From: a virus
Length of the DNA: 25,844 bases
IMG/VR virus record: IMGVR_UViG_3300048050_000112
Location: 1-25,844 of that record
Strand: one strand, 5' to 3'
Shown here: positions 2,812-21,483 of the stretch, piece by piece
How positions within the stretch are numbered: position 1 is the first letter of the stretch
Layout of the letters: each line of letters starts with the position of its first letter
The notes under the pieces: generated by a model
Database searches by the model: none
Seen by the model: the letters and a program-made list of their open reading frames with translations, nothing else
What the model was told of the DNA's origin: nothing
Made by a program: the position numbers and the translations under genes

Positions 2812-3275
2812 TACTGTCTCAGTGTGCGTTTCGGTTTTTCATTGGCCGGACGCGATTCCGTTTTTTTCCTGTTTTGGGTTTCCCGATCGGCAAATTCCAA
2901 CAGGTTCAATGTAAGATCAGCCGACTGGATCACACCTGAAGCGTTTGTCCGCAATATCTTTGATGAAATATTTTTGATTACATAATTGCCCTGGTAAACT
3001 CCTGAGCCAAACACCAACATCTGAGCTTCACCCGATGCCCTTAATTTATCCAGGGTTTCAATGGTTCCCGGAACATCGTGGCCAATGAAACTCCGGAGCA
3101 TGATATCGATCGATACTTGAGCCAAAGTTTCTCCCATTGGCTGAAGCGTTGGTTTCCCGGTGGCCAGATCGTGCTGTGCATAGTCAAAACCACTTTCTGA
3201 AGAAAATCCCGTGATCCCGTCATTAATGCCAAAACTGGCATCTCCCAACCTGCAAAAATCATTGTTATCCGGCAT
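2811..3275 (-). CDS. U: Tail terminator/assembly protein U (P2 gpU-like)
   Basis: A 154-residue protein resembling the P2 gpU family. Supporting features are the N-terminal FSSESGFDYAQHDLATGKP, the LQPMGETLAQVSIDIML strand pair, the IETLDKLRASGEAQMLVFGSG helix-strand and the YQGNYVIKNISSKI segment. The last 20 residues are charged and disordered (NRKKTESRPANEKPKRT), an extension that need not be conserved. P2 gpU helps complete or terminate the tail. The ATG lies within the end of the tape-measure gene, with an 11-base overlap. A GGGAGG stretch about 6 bases upstream of the ATG is one of the few good ribosome-binding sequences in this operon. Confidence 0.85.
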   Translation of the reverse strand: MPDNNDFCRLGDASFGINDGITGFSSESGFDYAQHDLATGKPTLQPMGETLAQVSIDIMLRSFIGHDVPGTIETLDKLRASGEAQMLVFGSGVYQGNYVIKNISSKILRTNASGVIQSADLTLNLLEFADRETQNRKKTESRPANEKPKRTLRQ

Positions 3276-6123
3276 ATTTTAACCTCCCGTCTTTTCGTAA
3301 TTCCTCATTGATAAGCTTCATCAGTGCGTCTTTATCTTCGCGCAACAACTTCATTAAGTTATCCTGGTTCTCCTTGGTCATTGCAGCCGATACATGTATC
3401 TGAGGCTGGTAATTGATTTCAATTTTACTGGCCTGGCTGTTCGACGTATTTTGGTTGGTAGTTTGGTAAGTTGCAATATTCTGGGTAATGTTTTTTGTGA
3501 GTTGCTCGAGGTTCGATATGGGCGATTGATAAGCCGGAGCATTGGCCATTGGCGCTCCGGTGGTTTTAGGCTTGGCCATGTCCATTATTCCGGGAACTTT
3601 AACCGTTCCCATGTTAGGCATCATTAGGTTCACAACTTTACCAGTCAAGGTTATTGCATCCATCACCGGTGGCTGCATGTTCATTGTTCCCGGAACTTGC
3701 ACCGTACCCGGGTTAGGCGTGGCCATGTTCACAATTTTACCCTGAAGGTTGGCTTGTTTCATGGCCGGTGTTTGCATATCCATCATTCCCGGAACCTTCA
3801 TCATGCTAATTTCAGGATTGGCCATATCCATCATTCCAGGTACTTTCATGGTACCCGGGTTAGGCGTGGCCATGTTCACAATTTTACCCTGAAGGTTGGC
3901 TTGTTTCATGGCCGGTGTTTGCATATCCATCATTCCCGGAACCTTCATCATGTTGAATTCAGGATTGGCCATATCCATTTGTCCAGGTACTTTCATCGTA
4001 CCCATATTAGGCGTGGCCATGTTCACAATTTTACCCTGAAGGTTGGCTTGTTTCATGGCCGGTGTTTGCATGTCCATCATTCCCGGAACTTTAACTACTC
4101 CCGGTTTTGAGGTATTCATGTTTACAATCTTTCCGGCAAGATTTGCCTGTTGAATCGCTGGATTAGTCTTTTTGTTGAAAGATAAAAAGTTACTGGTATC
4201 AATGGCTTTACCTTTCTTGTACCCGGAACTGACGGCGTTGCCGATTTCGTCTTTACGTTTGATGGTTTCAACTGCCACTCCAATTGGACTCATCTTAAAC
4301 GATCCTTTGGCGATGTCGCCAAAACTTGCCATCGCCGTTTTTCCGGCCTCTTTAAACTGGCCTGTAAACAACAGCGCAATAGCCTGACCAATCTTGCCAA
4401 TTCCGCCAAGCAATTGTTTTAAACCGCCCAGTACCGTGCCAAAAATCACATTACCCAACGCTTTCATTCCTTCCCAGGCACCAACCAATACACCCCGGAA
4501 CCCGGCAAAATGTTTCCAGGCTAAAGCGATAACAGCAACCAGCGCAATTACCCCGGCCACTATCCAGGTGATTGGGTTAGCCCAGAGCGCTGCCGTCCAT
4601 GCCCAGGTCTGTGCAATTACACCGGTGAACGAAGCCCACAATCCTTTTAATGCCACTCCTGTAACAGCCATTAACCCGTTCCATCCGGTTTGTATGGCCG
4701 ATGTCAATATCATGCGTTTGCCCCACAGCGAAGTAATACCGGCAGCCACCATTTGCGATTTGCTCACAATCCATGTCCAGGCAGCCTGTGCTTTGCTAAC
4801 GATGGTTTGTTGCATTTGCAAAAACATCCCTTTCCGGGTTTCGGCGTTAAACAGTTTGCCTATAAAAGTTCCAAATGTAACCGCGCCATTTTTCAACCAG
4901 ATACCACCGGCTGCAATACGCCCGGCCATTCCGTAGCGTTCGATCAACGCGCTGTAAGTCGATAGTTTACCACCAGCAAGCGCAGCATTCATCAGGCGGC
5001 TGGCTTTAACCAGGCTAATAACTCCAGTAACGCTTCCGGTGATACCTTTGCCTAAAACGCCTATAATCGGCGACAAAGCCGTAAATGTCATTGCTGCTTG
5101 TCCACCAATCTGTACCCAGCCTAATAACCCGGAGTTTGCCTGAAAAAATGTGATGGACAAATCGTTCATTTTTGCTTTTTGAACGTCCATCCAATGCACC
5201 CAGGTTTTATTCATAATTGCTGCCTGTTCAGTTGCAACACTTGTGCCTGTAACCTTTTGGGTGTATTCTTTTAGAAGGTCAGTATTCTGTATAAGGAATT
5301 GAGCTGCAGATATGTTTTCCTCTCCAAATACTTTAGTCATATAGGTTGCATCGCCTACTTTATCTTTCAGACTAGCCAATGCATCGACAACATTGGTCGT
5401 TTTAAAATTAATGCCAAGTTTGGTTGACATTTTCAGCAAAATATTGCGCAAAGCAGTACCGGCTTCTGAACCTTTGATGGCATCTTTCGACAAAACCTCG
5501 ATTGCGGCAGCTGTTTGCTCAACATTTAGCCCGGATGTTGCTGCAGTAGCTCCAACAACTTTAAACGATTGAGCCAGATCGGATACTTCGGCAGCGCCAT
5601 ATTTCGAACCGGCTGCTAACACATTCATAATCCGGCCTGCCTGGTCTGCTTTAAGCCCAAATTGATTAATAGTTGCTGCCAGGGCATTGGCGGCACCAGC
5701 CATTCCCAATTCTTTCGATGTTTGCGATAAGGTAATGGTACGAGTCATCAATTCGTTCAGCCCACTCATCCCGATTTTATCGTAATCAATCTGCGAGGCC
5801 AGCAACTTATAAGCTTCCAACGTGCCAGTAGCTCCTAACCCGCTTTCTTTTCCAACTTTTCGGGCCATTTTACCCAGATCGGTCAGTTCGCTTCCGGCAA
5901 TTCCGGTTATTGCGCTAACTTCAGCCAATCCAAAATCATACTCCTTTCCCGGAGTGCCAATACGATTGAGAGCATCCGAAGTACGACTAAGTAAATCGGC
6001 GGTTTGGTTAACCTTCCACAGGTTGTTCATCATGCCGTTCAAGCCTTTGTTCACCTGACCGAACACATTGCCGGTTTTGTTAATCGCGCCAAAAATTACA
6101 TCGATGGAGATTGAATTTGCCAT
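3265..6123 (-). CDS. Tail tape measure protein (TP901 core) with long tandem repeats
   Basis: A 952-residue tape measure protein that sets tail length and is probably ejected at infection. The N-terminal 50-330 region has the TP901 / PhageMin_Tail core (AEVSAITGIAGSELTDLGKM, GLNVEQTAAAIEVLSKDA, SEAGTALRNILLKM). The middle contains hydrophobic, probably membrane-inserting stretches around residues 480-570 (NPITWIVAGVIALVAVIAL). Residues about 650-850 are a Met/Pro/Gly-rich tandem repeat built on LQGKIVNM and MKVPGMMDM. The C-terminus is helical and charged. I start at the ATG at 6123 (MANSISIDVIFG). A TTG six codons upstream could extend the frame but lies inside a hairpin. Order chaperone, tape measure, U is standard. 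Start certainty is moderate; identity is firm. Confidence 0.95.
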   Translation of the reverse strand: MANSISIDVIFGAINKTGNVFGQVNKGLNGMMNNLWKVNQTADLLSRTSDALNRIGTPGKEYDFGLAEVSAITGIAGSELTDLGKMARKVGKESGLGATGTLEAYKLLASQIDYDKIGMSGLNELMTRTITLSQTSKELGMAGAANALAATINQFGLKADQAGRIMNVLAAGSKYGAAEVSDLAQSFKVVGATAATSGLNVEQTAAAIEVLSKDAIKGSEAGTALRNILLKMSTKLGINFKTTNVVDALASLKDKVGDATYMTKVFGEENISAAQFLIQNTDLLKEYTQKVTGTSVATEQAAIMNKTWVHWMDVQKAKMNDLSITFFQANSGLLGWVQIGGQAAMTFTALSPIIGVLGKGITGSVTGVISLVKASRLMNAALAGGKLSTYSALIERYGMAGRIAAGGIWLKNGAVTFGTFIGKLFNAETRKGMFLQMQQTIVSKAQAAWTWIVSKSQMVAAGITSLWGKRMILTSAIQTGWNGLMAVTGVALKGLWASFTGVIAQTWAWTAALWANPITWIVAGVIALVAVIALAWKHFAGFRGVLVGAWEGMKALGNVIFGTVLGGLKQLLGGIGKIGQAIALLFTGQFKEAGKTAMASFGDIAKGSFKMSPIGVAVETIKRKDEIGNAVSSGYKKGKAIDTSNFLSFNKKTNPAIQQANLAGKIVNMNTSKPGVVKVPGMMDMQTPAMKQANLQGKIVNMATPNMGTMKVPGQMDMANPEFNMMKVPGMMDMQTPAMKQANLQGKIVNMATPNPGTMKVPGMMDMANPEISMMKVPGMMDMQTPAMKQANLQGKIVNMATPNPGTVQVPGTMNMQPPVMDAITLTGKVVNLMMPNMGTVKVPGIMDMAKPKTTGAPMANAPAYQSPISNLEQLTKNITQNIATYQTTNQNTSNSQASKIEINYQPQIHVSAAMTKENQDNLMKLLREDKDALMKLINEELRKDGRLKYAG
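3565..4165 (-). repeat. Tandem repeats of 147 and 99 bases within the tape measure gene
   Basis: Five copies of a segment beginning with QANLxGKIVNM-like residues occur in order. Starts of the GGCTTGTTTC motif on the plus strand at 3751, 3898 and 4045 are exactly 147 bases (49 codons) apart. The flanking, more diverged copies are spaced 99 bases (33 codons) from these. The long unit differs from the short one by a 16-residue insert (ANPExxMMKVPGMMDM) that itself duplicates the VPGxMDM motif. All spacings are multiples of three, so copy number can vary without breaking the frame. Confidence 0.95.
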
Positions 6124-6139
6124 TGCTTGTTTTAAAATC

Positions 6140-6198
6140 AAAGTGCCTAAAGTGCCTTGCGCCGGTCAACTTTAGGCACTCCGAATTTTAGGCACTTT
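6140..6198. repeat. Inverted repeat / hairpin between tail chaperone and tape measure
   Basis: A perfect 12-base inverted repeat, AAAGTGCCTAAA (6140-6151) and TTTAGGCACTTT (6187-6198), with a second copy of the AGTGCC core inside each arm (6151-6156 and TTTAGGCACT at 6171-6180). The arms are built from a 9-base period, AAAGTGCCT repeated. It fills the 82-base gap upstream of the tape-measure ATG. It could be a transcript hairpin limiting read-through or ribosome access, or a captured mobile palindromic repeat. No U-tract follows on the minus strand, so a classical intrinsic terminator is unlikely. Confidence 0.75.
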
Positions 6199-6205
6199 AG
6201 TTCAC

Positions 6206-6301
6206 TTATTTATTTACCTCTTCAAAATATTGATTGAGTTCTTCCAACCAGGAGTTGAGCTCCGTGATGGTCATTTTCATTACGGTTTCGTAGCTGAACC
6301 C
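6206..6301 (-). CDS. Tail assembly chaperone, C-terminal frameshift extension
   Basis: A 31-codon open stretch in the -1 frame relative to the upstream chaperone gene. It encodes GFSYETVMKMTITELNSWL and continues to a TAA at 6206-6208. Its length and helical, acidic character (EELNQYFEEVNK end) fit the T-domain of gpG/gpGT-type or Mu gp41/gp42-type tail chaperones, which bind the tape measure protein. It sits exactly between the chaperone and the tape measure gene, where such extensions occur. It is probably made only as a fusion by -1 slippage at AAAGGGT (6298-6304), giving about 129 residues. Internal ATGs exist, so separate translation of a short peptide is possible but less likely. Confidence 0.65.
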   Translation of the reverse strand, partial: GFSYETVMKMTITELNSWLEELNQYFEEVNK

Positions 6302-6594
6302 TTTAGCATTTCTTGTAAGGATGATAACAGCTCTTTTGATCCAAGCGCTCCCCCGATAGTTAATTCGAGGTACAGTGACAAAAAATCAGTAGCCCTCATT
6401 TTTGCCAAATCTTCGAATGTTAGTTTTTTGCCGTCAAACGTGCAAATCTCAGCCGTTAGCGCTGCATTAAATGCAGGCCCTTCAGCTTCTCCTGAAGCGC
6501 GTTGCGCATTCATCATGTCCTGTACTGTAGCCTCGCGGGCTGCAACGTTTTCAAACGTTAATGGATTTTCTGTTTTCGTAATTGTTACTTTCAT
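6280..6594 (-). CDS. Tail assembly chaperone (Mu gp41-like)
   Basis: A 104-residue protein just upstream of the tape measure gene, the standard site of the first tail chaperone. It starts MKVTITKTENPLTFEN, has a central helix (ATVQDMMNAQRASGEA), and ends with DGKKLTFEDLAKMRATDF and a helical ELTIGGALGSKELLSSL. The pattern 'core strand, FxxLxxMxxxDFxxLxxEL' is common in P2 gpE- and Mu gp41-type tail chaperones. The product should coat the tape measure protein during tail assembly and not be found in the virion. A minor longer product is expected from a -1 frameshift near its 3' end. Confidence 0.75.
   Translation of the reverse strand: MKVTITKTENPLTFENVAAREATVQDMMNAQRASGEAEGPAFNAALTAEICTFDGKKLTFEDLAKMRATDFLSLYLELTIGGALGSKELLSSLQEMLKGSATKP
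6298..6304 (-). other. Candidate -1 ribosomal frameshift site AAAGGGT
   Basis: In the zero frame the minus strand reads CTA AAG GGT. The heptamer A AAG GGT allows the Lys tRNA to re-pair on AAA and the Gly tRNA on GGG after a one-base backward slip, each keeping its first two pairs. Slippage enters the open -1 frame that runs to 6206 and bypasses the zero-frame TAA at 6280-6282. It resembles the lambda GGGAAAG tail-chaperone site with the order of codons reversed. No stimulatory structure was identified. Confidence 0.5.
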
Positions 6595-18784: not shown

Positions 18785-20116
18785 ATGACGACAACTAACA
18801 ATAGCGCTTCTTTCGCCTCCCCTTCGGGGAGGTCGGGTGGGGCTTCCGGTTCCGAGATTTTAAAAGCAAAACTCGAACTATCAATCAAACAGTTACCCAA
18901 CCCGTCGCTGGTGCTTAAGAAAAAATCGGCCCTGATCGACCTGTTCGATAAAATAGCCATTCACCAGGATATTTTTCCACAGCTGATCAGCTACCGTGAT
19001 GCCTTGTCAGGACTGGAAATCAATTTTCAACAAGCTCGCAAAACAAATACCAAGGCGGCAACCAATCAGGCTATCATCGACTGGTTTGAATCGTTTTTCG
19101 ACCAGTTCAATTCCTGGTCATTCATGCGCAACGCTGTTGTCAGTCGCGACTATGGTTTTATTGTGATGGAAATCACTGAATACGGCGAATTTGATGGAAA
19201 AATTGTCCCTGTTAAAGTAGAACCAGCGCCGCAGAAATTTTTCTTTTTCGATCGCGACCGGGTACTCCGGATGTACTCCAATCAAGTGCGCGATGGCATT
19301 GACGTGATGGCCACCTGGCCAAACAAATTTATCCTCGTGCAGCACGAACCCACCTTGTTGAATCCTTACGGAATCGGCTTGCTCGATATTGCCTACTGGA
19401 TGGCAGTTGGACTGAACGGTAACTTCGAGTTCATGCTTCAGTTTGCCGAAGAAGATGGCCGCGACAAATGGCTGGGGAAATATCCACCCGGTGCAAAAAC
19501 TGAGGAAATATCCGACCTGCTGAACATGTTGGTACAGTTGCGTAACAACGGTGTGGCTGCCATTCCTGACGGCACGCTAATCGAATCGATGAAAAACACC
19601 GGCAGGACATCAACCACCAATTTGTACAAAGATATTGACGAGATCCTGCGCCGAAAGGTGGAGAAACTTTGGACAGGTACCGACCTTACCATGCAGGTGC
19701 AAGGCAAAGGCGGTTATTCATCCAGCCAATCAGGATTAGACATCCGCGAAGATGCCGTTGAATCAGGCAAACAGCTTTGTTTGTCAGCCGTCAACCAACT
19801 GGTAACAATCATTCAAAACCTGAACGGCATGACCGTTGAGCGCCTGCCGATCCGCCTCCAGTCGCCCCGCAAAATCAGCAAAGATGCTGCCGAAATCGAC
19901 AATATTTATTTTGGCGCTGGCATGAAACCCACCAAGCAACTACTCATGAAACGCGGCTACGATGAAGATGATTTTATCCTGGCTTCGACAAGCTCAGCCA
20001 ACGGAGCGCCGGTCGCTGAGCCAAGTCGAAGCGATTTTGCCGCCGATCCTGAAGAATACGATGGCCTTATTTCAGCCTTCGAAACCTACCAGGAACTCCT
20101 AAAAAAAAAGAGGTAA
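18785..20116 (+). CDS. Portal protein (Mu gp29-like, DUF935)
   Basis: A 443-residue portal subunit forming the dodecameric DNA gateway. DUF935 features: PLISYRDALSGLEINFQQAR-like clip entry, IIDWFESFFDQFNSWSFMRN, SRDYGFIVMEITEYGEFDGK, HEPTLLNPYGIGLLDIAYWM, GKYPPGAKTEEISDLLNMLV, and GGYSSSQSGLDIREDAVESG. Residues 11-21 and about 400-416 are encoded by palindromic repeats, giving low-complexity SPSGRSGGAS and an STSSANGAPVAEPSRSD insertion. The reading frame ends KKKR at an A9 tract where a -1 slip would fuse the portal to F. The start ATG at 18785 is the only one upstream of the conserved part, so the repeat is within the gene. Confidence 0.94.
   Translation: MTTTNNSASFASPSGRSGGASGSEILKAKLELSIKQLPNPSLVLKKKSALIDLFDKIAIHQDIFPQLISYRDALSGLEINFQQARKTNTKAATNQAIIDWFESFFDQFNSWSFMRNAVVSRDYGFIVMEITEYGEFDGKIVPVKVEPAPQKFFFFDRDRVLRMYSNQVRDGIDVMATWPNKFILVQHEPTLLNPYGIGLLDIAYWMAVGLNGNFEFMLQFAEEDGRDKWLGKYPPGAKTEEISDLLNMLVQLRNNGVAAIPDGTLIESMKNTGRTSTTNLYKDIDEILRRKVEKLWTGTDLTMQVQGKGGYSSSQSGLDIREDAVESGKQLCLSAVNQLVTIIQNLNGMTVERLPIRLQSPRKISKDAAEIDNIYFGAGMKPTKQLLMKRGYDEDDFILASTSSANGAPVAEPSRSDFAADPEEYDGLISAFETYQELLKKKR
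18815..18845. repeat. GC-rich palindromic repeat inside the portal 5' coding region
   Basis: A perfect 7-base stem CCTCCCC / GGGGAGG (18816-18822, 18826-18832) with a TTC loop, then TCGGGTGGGGCTT, like copies at 8556-8600, 12821-12853 and 15009-15043. It encodes portal residues 11-21. As it lies about 30 bases into the coding sequence, it could also reduce translation initiation by structure. Confidence 0.75.
19982..20032. repeat. Imperfect palindrome (GCTTCGAC..GTCGAAGC) inside the portal 3' coding region
   Basis: Left arm GCTTCGACAAGCTCAGC and right arm GCTGAGCCAAGTCGAAGC pair except for two central bases, with an ACGGAGCGCCGGTC-type loop. This resembles the GCTTCGACAAGCTCAGC repeat family I recall from many bacterial chromosomes. 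It encodes about residues 400-416 of the portal, an Ala/Ser/Pro-rich linker before the C-terminal acidic segment. Confidence 0.75.
20091..20110 (+). other. Candidate -1 slippery site joining portal and F
   Basis: The zero frame reads CTA AAA AAA AAG AGG TAA over an A9 run (20101-20109). The last part, A AAA AAG (20104-20110), is the dnaX-type slippery heptamer in the correct phase. An AGGA at 20091-20094 lies 9 bases upstream, like the stimulatory internal Shine-Dalgarno of dnaX. A one-base backward slip enters a frame open through GTAACCGGTGAT to the F start at 20179 and on through F. Polymerase slippage adding one A would do the same. Confidence 0.55.
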
Positions 20117-20178
20117 CCGGTGATTTAAAATCCAATTCAAAATTCATTGAAACGCTTTCCAATGAGCTTTATAAGCAA

Positions 20179-21483
20179 ATGGAAAGCGCATTCAATCGTG
20201 GCGAAAAATCCATCCTTGATTGGATCAAGCTACACCATTCCGATTACGCGGCCAACGATTTGTCTGTTGGTTTAAAAGAAGGCAACCCATCCGCCGCTTC
20301 GTTCATGAAGTTCCAGGCGTTTACCACGGCAGCCGTGCAGGATCAGCGCATACGCACGCGCATACAGGCCGCGCTGGCCGGTAACCTGAAGCGTGGTGAA
20401 GGCGCAGCGCCTTTCAAAAAGGTGATTGATTCAGAGTTCGACAAAGCCGGTTTATCCAGGCTCAACCCGTCGCAAATACAAAACATTTACCAAACCAATA
20501 CCTCGCTGGCCTATGGATCGGGGCAAATGGGCAAAATGGTAGAGGTTTCGGGCGACTTCCCATACTGGAAGTACTCGGCCACAATGGACTCGAAAACACG
20601 TCCGGAACATGCCGCGTTACATGGCAAAATCTTCCGGACTGGTGACTTTACCTTCTGGCCGCCAATCGGGTTCAGGTGCCGGTGTACGGCCATCCCGCTA
20701 ACCGCACGTCAGGCCGGGCAATACCTGAAGATGGCCATGCCAACCGACGAGGAACGGCACCAGCTCATTAACAACACCGGTAACGCCGAATTTCTGGGCA
20801 ACAAACAACAAAAGTACATGGAGTGGGTTGGTAAGGAGTATGCCAAAGCCGACGAGCAAACCAAAGCCTATATTGACAAGGCTTTCGAGACAATGCGTGG
20901 TGAAATTAACGCGCTCCAGGGCGAATCGCTGAAGCAGTTCTTCAGCAACGATTTTGTAAAAACAACCTGGGATAAATTCCGCCTCGATCAGGGTTTCACC
21001 GTAGCGGCACAGGCCAGCAAACTAAGCACCAAACAGGCTTATTACATCCACGCCTATACCAAGGATGCTCCATTGTACCGGGAGCTAAACGCATACATGT
21101 TTACCGGCAAAACCCCCGAAAATTTCAGCCTGAACAACCTTTTGACCATGAAGCGAATGTTAACCACATCGCTCAAAAAGATGCCTAAATACGAGGGTAC
21201 GGCATACCGGTATGTTCCCGATCTTCCGGCAGGAGTCCTGAAGCAATACAAGCCCGGCAGTACCATTGCGTGGGATGGATTTAGTTCGGCCACAACCAAG
21301 CCGAATTTGTTCAACGACCGGAACATTGAATTCCTGATCCGGTCAAAAACCTCGCGGCCAATCAGCCAGCTTTCCGAATTCGAAGGGCAAAAAGAAACCC
21401 TGTTCATGCCGGGGTCAAAGTTTAAAGTGACTAACCGGACTGAACAGGGTTCGAAAATCCTGATTGAACTGGAAGAAATCTAA
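20179..21483 (+). CDS. F: Minor head protein (Mu F / SPP1 gp7-like) with C-terminal ADP-ribosyltransferase domain
   Basis: A 434-residue protein with two parts. Residues 1-180 are the Mu F-like head morphogenesis domain, whose core is YWKYSATMDSKTRPEHAALHG and FWPPIGFRCRCTAIPLTARQ (129-178), including C167 and C169. Residues about 265-434 match an R-S-E ADP-ribosyltransferase: AYYIHAYTKDAPLYRELNAYM, the catalytic Arg region YRYV (R344), a strand with WDGFSSATT (S369/S370 as the STS-like element), and FEGQKETLFMPGSKF with E406 and Q404, a QxE type. The ART domain probably transfers ADP-ribose to a host protein; the target is unknown. The start is uncertain: the frame is open upstream to the portal A-tract. 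The gene ends with a 4-base convergent overlap with the early operon. Confidence 0.9.
   Translation: MESAFNRGEKSILDWIKLHHSDYAANDLSVGLKEGNPSAASFMKFQAFTTAAVQDQRIRTRIQAALAGNLKRGEGAAPFKKVIDSEFDKAGLSRLNPSQIQNIYQTNTSLAYGSGQMGKMVEVSGDFPYWKYSATMDSKTRPEHAALHGKIFRTGDFTFWPPIGFRCRCTAIPLTARQAGQYLKMAMPTDEERHQLINNTGNAEFLGNKQQKYMEWVGKEYAKADEQTKAYIDKAFETMRGEINALQGESLKQFFSNDFVKTTWDKFRLDQGFTVAAQASKLSTKQAYYIHAYTKDAPLYRELNAYMFTGKTPENFSLNNLLTMKRMLTTSLKKMPKYEGTAYRYVPDLPAGVLKQYKPGSTIAWDGFSSATTKPNLFNDRNIEFLIRSKTSRPISQLSEFEGQKETLFMPGSKFKVTNRTEQGSKILIELEEI

Follow-up and report, generated by a model that had tools for sequence, protein, structure and literature searches.

Results

We have examined the junction between the portal gene and the gene for the minor head protein F in a 25,844-base stretch of viral DNA (IMG/VR record IMGVR_UViG_3300048050_000112, referred to below as the window), which was identified as a Mu-like phage record. 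A run of nine A residues (A9) at the 3' end of the portal gene is very probably a programmed slippage site, at which either RNA polymerase or the ribosome would slip to make a portal-F fusion. Comparisons with related phages indicate that F is made, probably mainly, as this fusion, because start codons for a separate F are missing or not conserved and the site is kept in 27/27 junctions. The features of the region, by window position, are as follows.

18785 to 20116, plus strand: portal gene (Mu portal / DUF935 family), frame 0, C-terminal end LLKKKR*; Pfam Portal_Mu, E=1.6e-44
20091 to 20094, plus strand: AGGA, Shine-Dalgarno (SD)-like, 9 nt 5' of the heptamer; probably incidental, not conserved
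20101 to 20109, plus strand: A9, the putative slippage tract, followed by G20110; at least A9 plus G at all clade junctions (from sequence)
20104 to 20110, plus strand: A AAA AAG heptamer, possible ribosomal -1 site, in the portal frame and dnaX phase
20114 to 20116, plus strand: portal stop TAA, which would terminate the unslipped product (from sequence)
20110 to 20178, plus strand: 23-codon link between portal and F in the -1 frame; carries a P(D/N)xxFI helix motif kept clade-wide
20110 to 21483, plus strand: trans-frame part of the putative portal-F fusion (F, minor head protein, with a C-terminal ADP-ribosyltransferase), from Pfam domains
20179 to 20181, plus strand: apparent F start ATG (M24), not conserved, inside the first predicted helix
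20359 to 20694, plus strand: Phage_Mu_F domain, Pfam E=2.2e-16
20944 to 21477, plus strand: NAD:arginine ADP-ribosyltransferase (ART)-like domain, the putative cargo, Pfam ART E=1e-13; a different domain in relative L007

The portal gene, which is also matched by PHROG 113 (portal; E=5.9e-44), ends CTA AAA AAA AAG AGG TAA. When this end was tested for a heptamer of the form X XXY YYZ, A AAA AAG was found in phase at 20104-20110. No stop interrupts the -1 frame between 20110 and 21480, through all of F, and its first ATG, at 20179, is separated by 62 nt from the portal stop. The original prediction, made from the window sequence alone, had described this portal end with its heptamer in dnaX phase, the AGGA 9 nt upstream, the 62-nt gap and the -1 frame open for 23 codons before the ATG and then through F, and we find that its coordinates hold. 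It had also called the -1 segment open and protein-like, which stands; the first residue past the lysines, however, was misread, being E (EVTGDLKSNSKFIETLSNELYKQ) and not G. The A9 tract is the sole A/T run of at least 9 in the whole window.

Conservation of the A-run at the portal-F junction

Alignments of portal and of F were used to search viral contigs and the genomes of Bacteroidota, which gave 24 junctions; L099, L100 and L130 were added later, to give a total of 27, window included, with near-duplicates among them (L017/L018/L065 and L023/L058). In each of the 27 the portal gene has, at its 3' end, a run of at least nine A's followed by G, frame 0 reaches a stop within ~8 codons, and F lies in the -1 frame; the run is A10 in one junction and A9 elsewhere. 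Conservation of the run at the junction far exceeds chance, because the clade contigs (160,245 bases in total) contain 22 A/T runs of at least 9, and 20 of these are exactly the portal-F site. The remaining two, both runs of 9, are at L057:8537 and L060:8690.

The closest relatives among the viral contigs, L002 (84%) and L003 (67%), keep A9 and the -1 relation, and in both a conserved GDLK-NS-FI segment precedes the ATG position. A9G is also retained in L007 (68%), a metagenome-assembled genome of Rikenella, where the ATG position is CTT and F has its first possible start at 5145, a TTG on the border of the conserved core. The same junction pattern was observed in L013 and L015, and in L013 the -1 frame is open even where an inserted repeat takes the place of the linker. 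A GC-rich palindromic repeat (CCCCTCTnACTCCCCCGAnGGGGGAG) at ~5150-5290 of L013 lies in the portal C-terminal linker and the -1-frame linker, and is tolerated in both frames.

In a tree of 47 portals, 23 of the 24 clade rows were scored, the 24th (L056) being incomplete at the junction. A branch with 100/100 support separates all rows with the slip site (23/23 inside) from the others (0/23 outside), and the contig of L056 (L100) carries the site though the L056 row ends at the junction. None of the 23 outside portals has an A-run longer than 5 in its last 45 bases, and where MuF is adjacent to an outside portal it is a separate gene with its own start. Phages of Pasteurella, E. coli, Pseudomonas and Faecalibacterium also carry portal and MuF as separate genes. 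These observations point to a single origin of the slip site, which appears to have been kept over long evolutionary time. A search of a phage collection for close relatives returned only distant portals with separate-gene MuF, and a search of a plasmid collection only distant DUF935 proteins. We rejected L109 and L110 as extra clade members since neither has an adjoining clade portal; L109, a genome fragment with a MuF domain fairly near that of the clade and without a portal beside it, resembles a decayed prophage.

Coding in the -1 frame

We aligned 20 F sequences and counted ATG, GTG and TTG as starts. Ten of these have no start ahead of the conserved core, the first one occurring at codon 104-227, and in 13 of the 20 the position of the window's M24 is L or N (CTT, TTA, CTC, CTG or AAC); a counterpart of ATG 20179 was found in L002 and L003. 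To the 5' side of the ATG position, the P(D/N)xxFI motif is conserved throughout the clade, and PHROG 2662, a naturally fused family of 717 positions annotated as 'portal protein', matches F from residue 4, before the ATG. Third-position excess and counts of synonymous and nonsynonymous changes in the short pre-ATG stretch are weak indicators when taken alone. By these comparisons the trans-frame region is under coding selection, with its own start missing in half of the relatives. The original prediction had asked of the relatives whether F starts normally near 20179, whether the gap is conserved as coding sequence and whether a slippery site is kept; we observed that the start is not conserved and that the pre-ATG coding and the slippery site are. 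Its central proposal, a -1 join between portal and F that yields portal-F fusions as minor subunits, thereby receives strong support.

Some observations weigh against the proposed fusion. ATG is present at the M24 position in the window, in its closest relatives and in L024, L059, L060 and L061, and some free F may be made. Also, an AlphaFold2 model of the F N-terminal region was poor, with a mean predicted local distance difference test score of 59.7; this low-confidence model places a helix at F residues 10-29, across M24.

RNA polymerase or ribosome as the putative slipping machine

RNA polymerase is somewhat the likelier main slipping machine. We favour polymerase slippage resembling that of Thermus dnaX over ribosomal slippage of the E. 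coli dnaX type, without regarding the matter as proven, because it is the run length that is conserved and not the codon phase, an SD element or 3' structure, and because the hosts have tRNA-Lys(CTT). The minimal ribosomal heptamer A AAA AAG requires six A's, and the run is nine or longer in each clade member. The Leu ahead of the lysines is encoded by TTA or CTA in every case, a pair that accounts for 9.6% of Leu codons in clade portals; other lineages have ATA, GTA or ACA in place of this Leu codon. In the L017 type the pre-lysine codon is ATT and the run is extended on the other side (AAA AAA AAA G), such that nine A's are kept and the phase is changed. Codon phase differs in two lineages (L017/L018/L065 and L021), and a phase-independent homopolymer test accordingly found at least nine A's kept in two phases. 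Polymerase slippage, which the original prediction had listed among its alternatives, fits this conserved run.

A ribosomal -1 frameshift of the E. coli dnaX type would be a different main route to the same fusion, rival to polymerase slippage on the machine only, and it is a possibility of some weight, either alone or in addition. In its favour are the exact phase of the heptamer, in the window as in most relatives, the G that comes directly after the A-run at every junction and, in the window, the AGGA 9 nt 5' of the heptamer. The L017 and L021 types have A AAA AAA as the heptamer; one or other heptamer is thus present at every site, which counts against polymerase slippage as the sole explanation in that a ribosomal route is possible throughout. 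The AGGA, however, is not conserved, and SD-like tetramers of any kind occurred in 5/24 junctions versus 18% of background 25-nt windows, which is no enrichment. Nor was a consistent downstream stem-loop found that might stimulate ribosomes: folding z was ~0 in most junctions with no common structure, in a test that did not extend to pseudoknots, and was -3.6 in L021 alone. The two lineages with shifted phase, which retain at least nine A's, also argue against a ribosomal site, as does the selected third base of the pre-lysine codon, which falls outside the minimal heptamer, although an overlapping second slip site could explain this. Finally, tRNA-Lys(CTT) is encoded in 7 host genomes, which also counts against ribosomal slippage; the presence of both lysine tRNAs may explain why slippage at the 9-base run of Thermus dnaX is transcriptional (PMC5009743). 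In summary, of the originally predicted dnaX-type site the heptamer and its phase stand, and the ribosomal reading of it is weakened.

Two further explanations dispense with programmed slippage. That F is an ordinary separate gene read from ATG 20179, with the A-tract and the open upstream frame incidental, is very unlikely: it would account for the ATG in the window, L002 and L003, but not for the codon replacements at that position, the F sequences that have no start ahead of the core, the conserved upstream -1 frame with its match to a natural fusion family, or the A-run at every junction. That the homopolymer was misread or misassembled, or that a fixed fusion broke recently, both raised in the original prediction, is hardly credible and we reject it, for although homopolymers are error-prone and fixed portal-MuF fusions exist (PMC7302621), many independent assemblies across a deep clade have the identical A9 and frame relation, and no in-frame portal-F version was seen among clade members.

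The C-terminal cargo of F

The window has the layout of MuF toxins, with a Phage_Mu_F domain directly 3' of the portal and a toxin-like C-terminal domain. In SPP1, each capsid contains one or two copies of the MuF protein gp7, located at the portal, and a toxin-like C-terminal domain is a frequent feature of MuF proteins from temperate phages (PMC5576092, PMC6316719). ADP-ribosyltransferase activity is known for Bxa, a MuF-ART encoded by a Bacteroides prophage (PMC11699363). We observed that the cargo varies among close relatives. The window, L002 and L003 have ART, and in L007 (4989-6539) the same portal/MuF part leads into a C-terminal domain that is unrelated to ART, contains an HExxH-like motif and has a weak, sub-threshold metallopeptidase match. 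From the sequences, the cargo is swapped 3' of the MuF domain in this L007-type Rikenella prophage. Several other clade F proteins showed no recognised cargo domain.

In other Bacteroidota (L129, L131, L133 and L134), Portal_Mu, Phage_Mu_F and a PBECR2 nuclease-like domain occur in fixed in-frame proteins. Because of these proteins and PHROG 2662, covalent joining of portal and MuF is an established architecture, and this clade would differ in fusing only a fraction of its portal subunits. MuF lies in very long open frames, ~830-940 codons, in L129, L131-L135 and L137, all from Bacteroidota, and the four of these that were scanned for domains are the fixed proteins just named.

Elsewhere in the window, on the minus strand, a short open reading frame at 6204-6282 (start MKMTITELNSWLEEL) overlaps the stop of the open reading frame at 6280-6594, upstream of the tape measure gene, and possibly encodes the second member of a pair of tail chaperones. 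The tape-measure-like protein (3265-6141) has several near-identical repeats of ~35-40 residues (KVPGMMDMQTPAMKQANLQGKIVNMATPN) encoded at ~3560-4110, also on the minus strand.

Discussion

We propose that most transcripts or ribosomes would yield plain portal, terminating at 20114-20116. RNA polymerase slippage would add one A to a fraction of the mRNAs, and the resulting A10 would be read through into F; alternatively, a ribosome slipping -1 at the A-tract would make the same fusion, of ~900 residues. If portal subunits of both kinds co-assemble in one ring, a minority would bear F and its C-terminal enzyme covalently, their number being set by the slippage rate, and the minor head protein would thereby be located at the portal and presumably inside the head. 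We infer the occurrence and efficiency of slippage, the incorporation into the ring and the placement of the cargo from what was observed, namely a conserved site and geometry, coding conservation in the -1 frame, the lack, in half of the relatives, of a start codon that F could use, and selection on run length. More tentatively, it could be that in this one lineage of Mu-like Bacteroidota phages RNA-polymerase slippage at A9 provides a set fraction of portal subunits with covalent MuF and exchangeable cargo, such that heterogeneity of transcripts doses the injected effector per virion and the symmetry of the ring is broken.

The presence of one or two minor head protein copies on a twelve-fold portal ring has so far been poorly explained, and a conserved slippage site that fuses F to a minority of portal subunits would be a simple, testable answer. 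MuF-linked enzymes in the clade would then ride covalently on the portal. On the practical side, by this reading gene callers mis-annotate F in the clade, giving either no F gene or one truncated from an internal codon. If polymerase slippage is the true mechanism, the clade would offer a phage structural gene in which transcriptional slippage is conserved and serves as a natural device for setting a ratio.

Previous work has described fixed portal-MuF fusions (PMC7302621), MuF toxins and phage tail proteins made by frameshifting. We found no slippage- or frameshift-made portal-MuF in the literature searched, where subscription papers were thinly covered and absence is no proof. The portal is not mentioned in the main text of the large GeneTack frame-transition survey, and the Hankyphage paper has no mention of portal, frameshift or slippage.

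Among known systems, dnaX of Thermus thermophilus (PMC5009743) resembles the clade in having a nine-A run in the mRNA, the heterogeneity of which would set the ratio of two products, in requiring no stimulatory structure, and in hosts with both tRNA-Lys isoacceptors. It differs in being a non-phage case with different genes, and in that its full-length product is in frame and slippage truncates it, whereas slippage in the phage would make an extended fusion. E. coli dnaX has the identical heptamer A AAA AAG in the identical phase as the window. The clade, however, has no conserved upstream SD or 3' stem-loop and keeps at least nine A's, and the direction is opposite, the phage frame 0 giving the short product.

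Like the clade, SPP1 gp7, the MuF polymorphic toxins (PMC5576092, PMC6316719) and Bxa (PMC11699363) have MuF just 3' of the portal and a variable C-terminal enzyme, ADP-ribosyltransferase included; there, MuF is a separate product that binds non-covalently, and in the clade it is apparently made mainly as a portal fusion. The fixed fusions of Microbacterium phages EA3/EA5/EA8/EB (PMC7302621), PHROG 2662 and the four in-frame Bacteroidota proteins described above likewise join portal and MuF covalently, sometimes with a toxin-like third domain, but these have MuF on every portal subunit and no slippage site. Lambda gpG/gpGT, the HK97-like tail chaperones and SPP1 gp17.1/gp17.1* (PMC6316719) are likewise phage structural or assembly genes in which frameshifting makes a C-terminal extension at a fixed ratio. 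In contrast to these, the clade would join a portal and a minor head protein, not extend a tail chaperone or tail tube, and the extension would be ~260 to >500 residues long, with a domain of its own and cargo.
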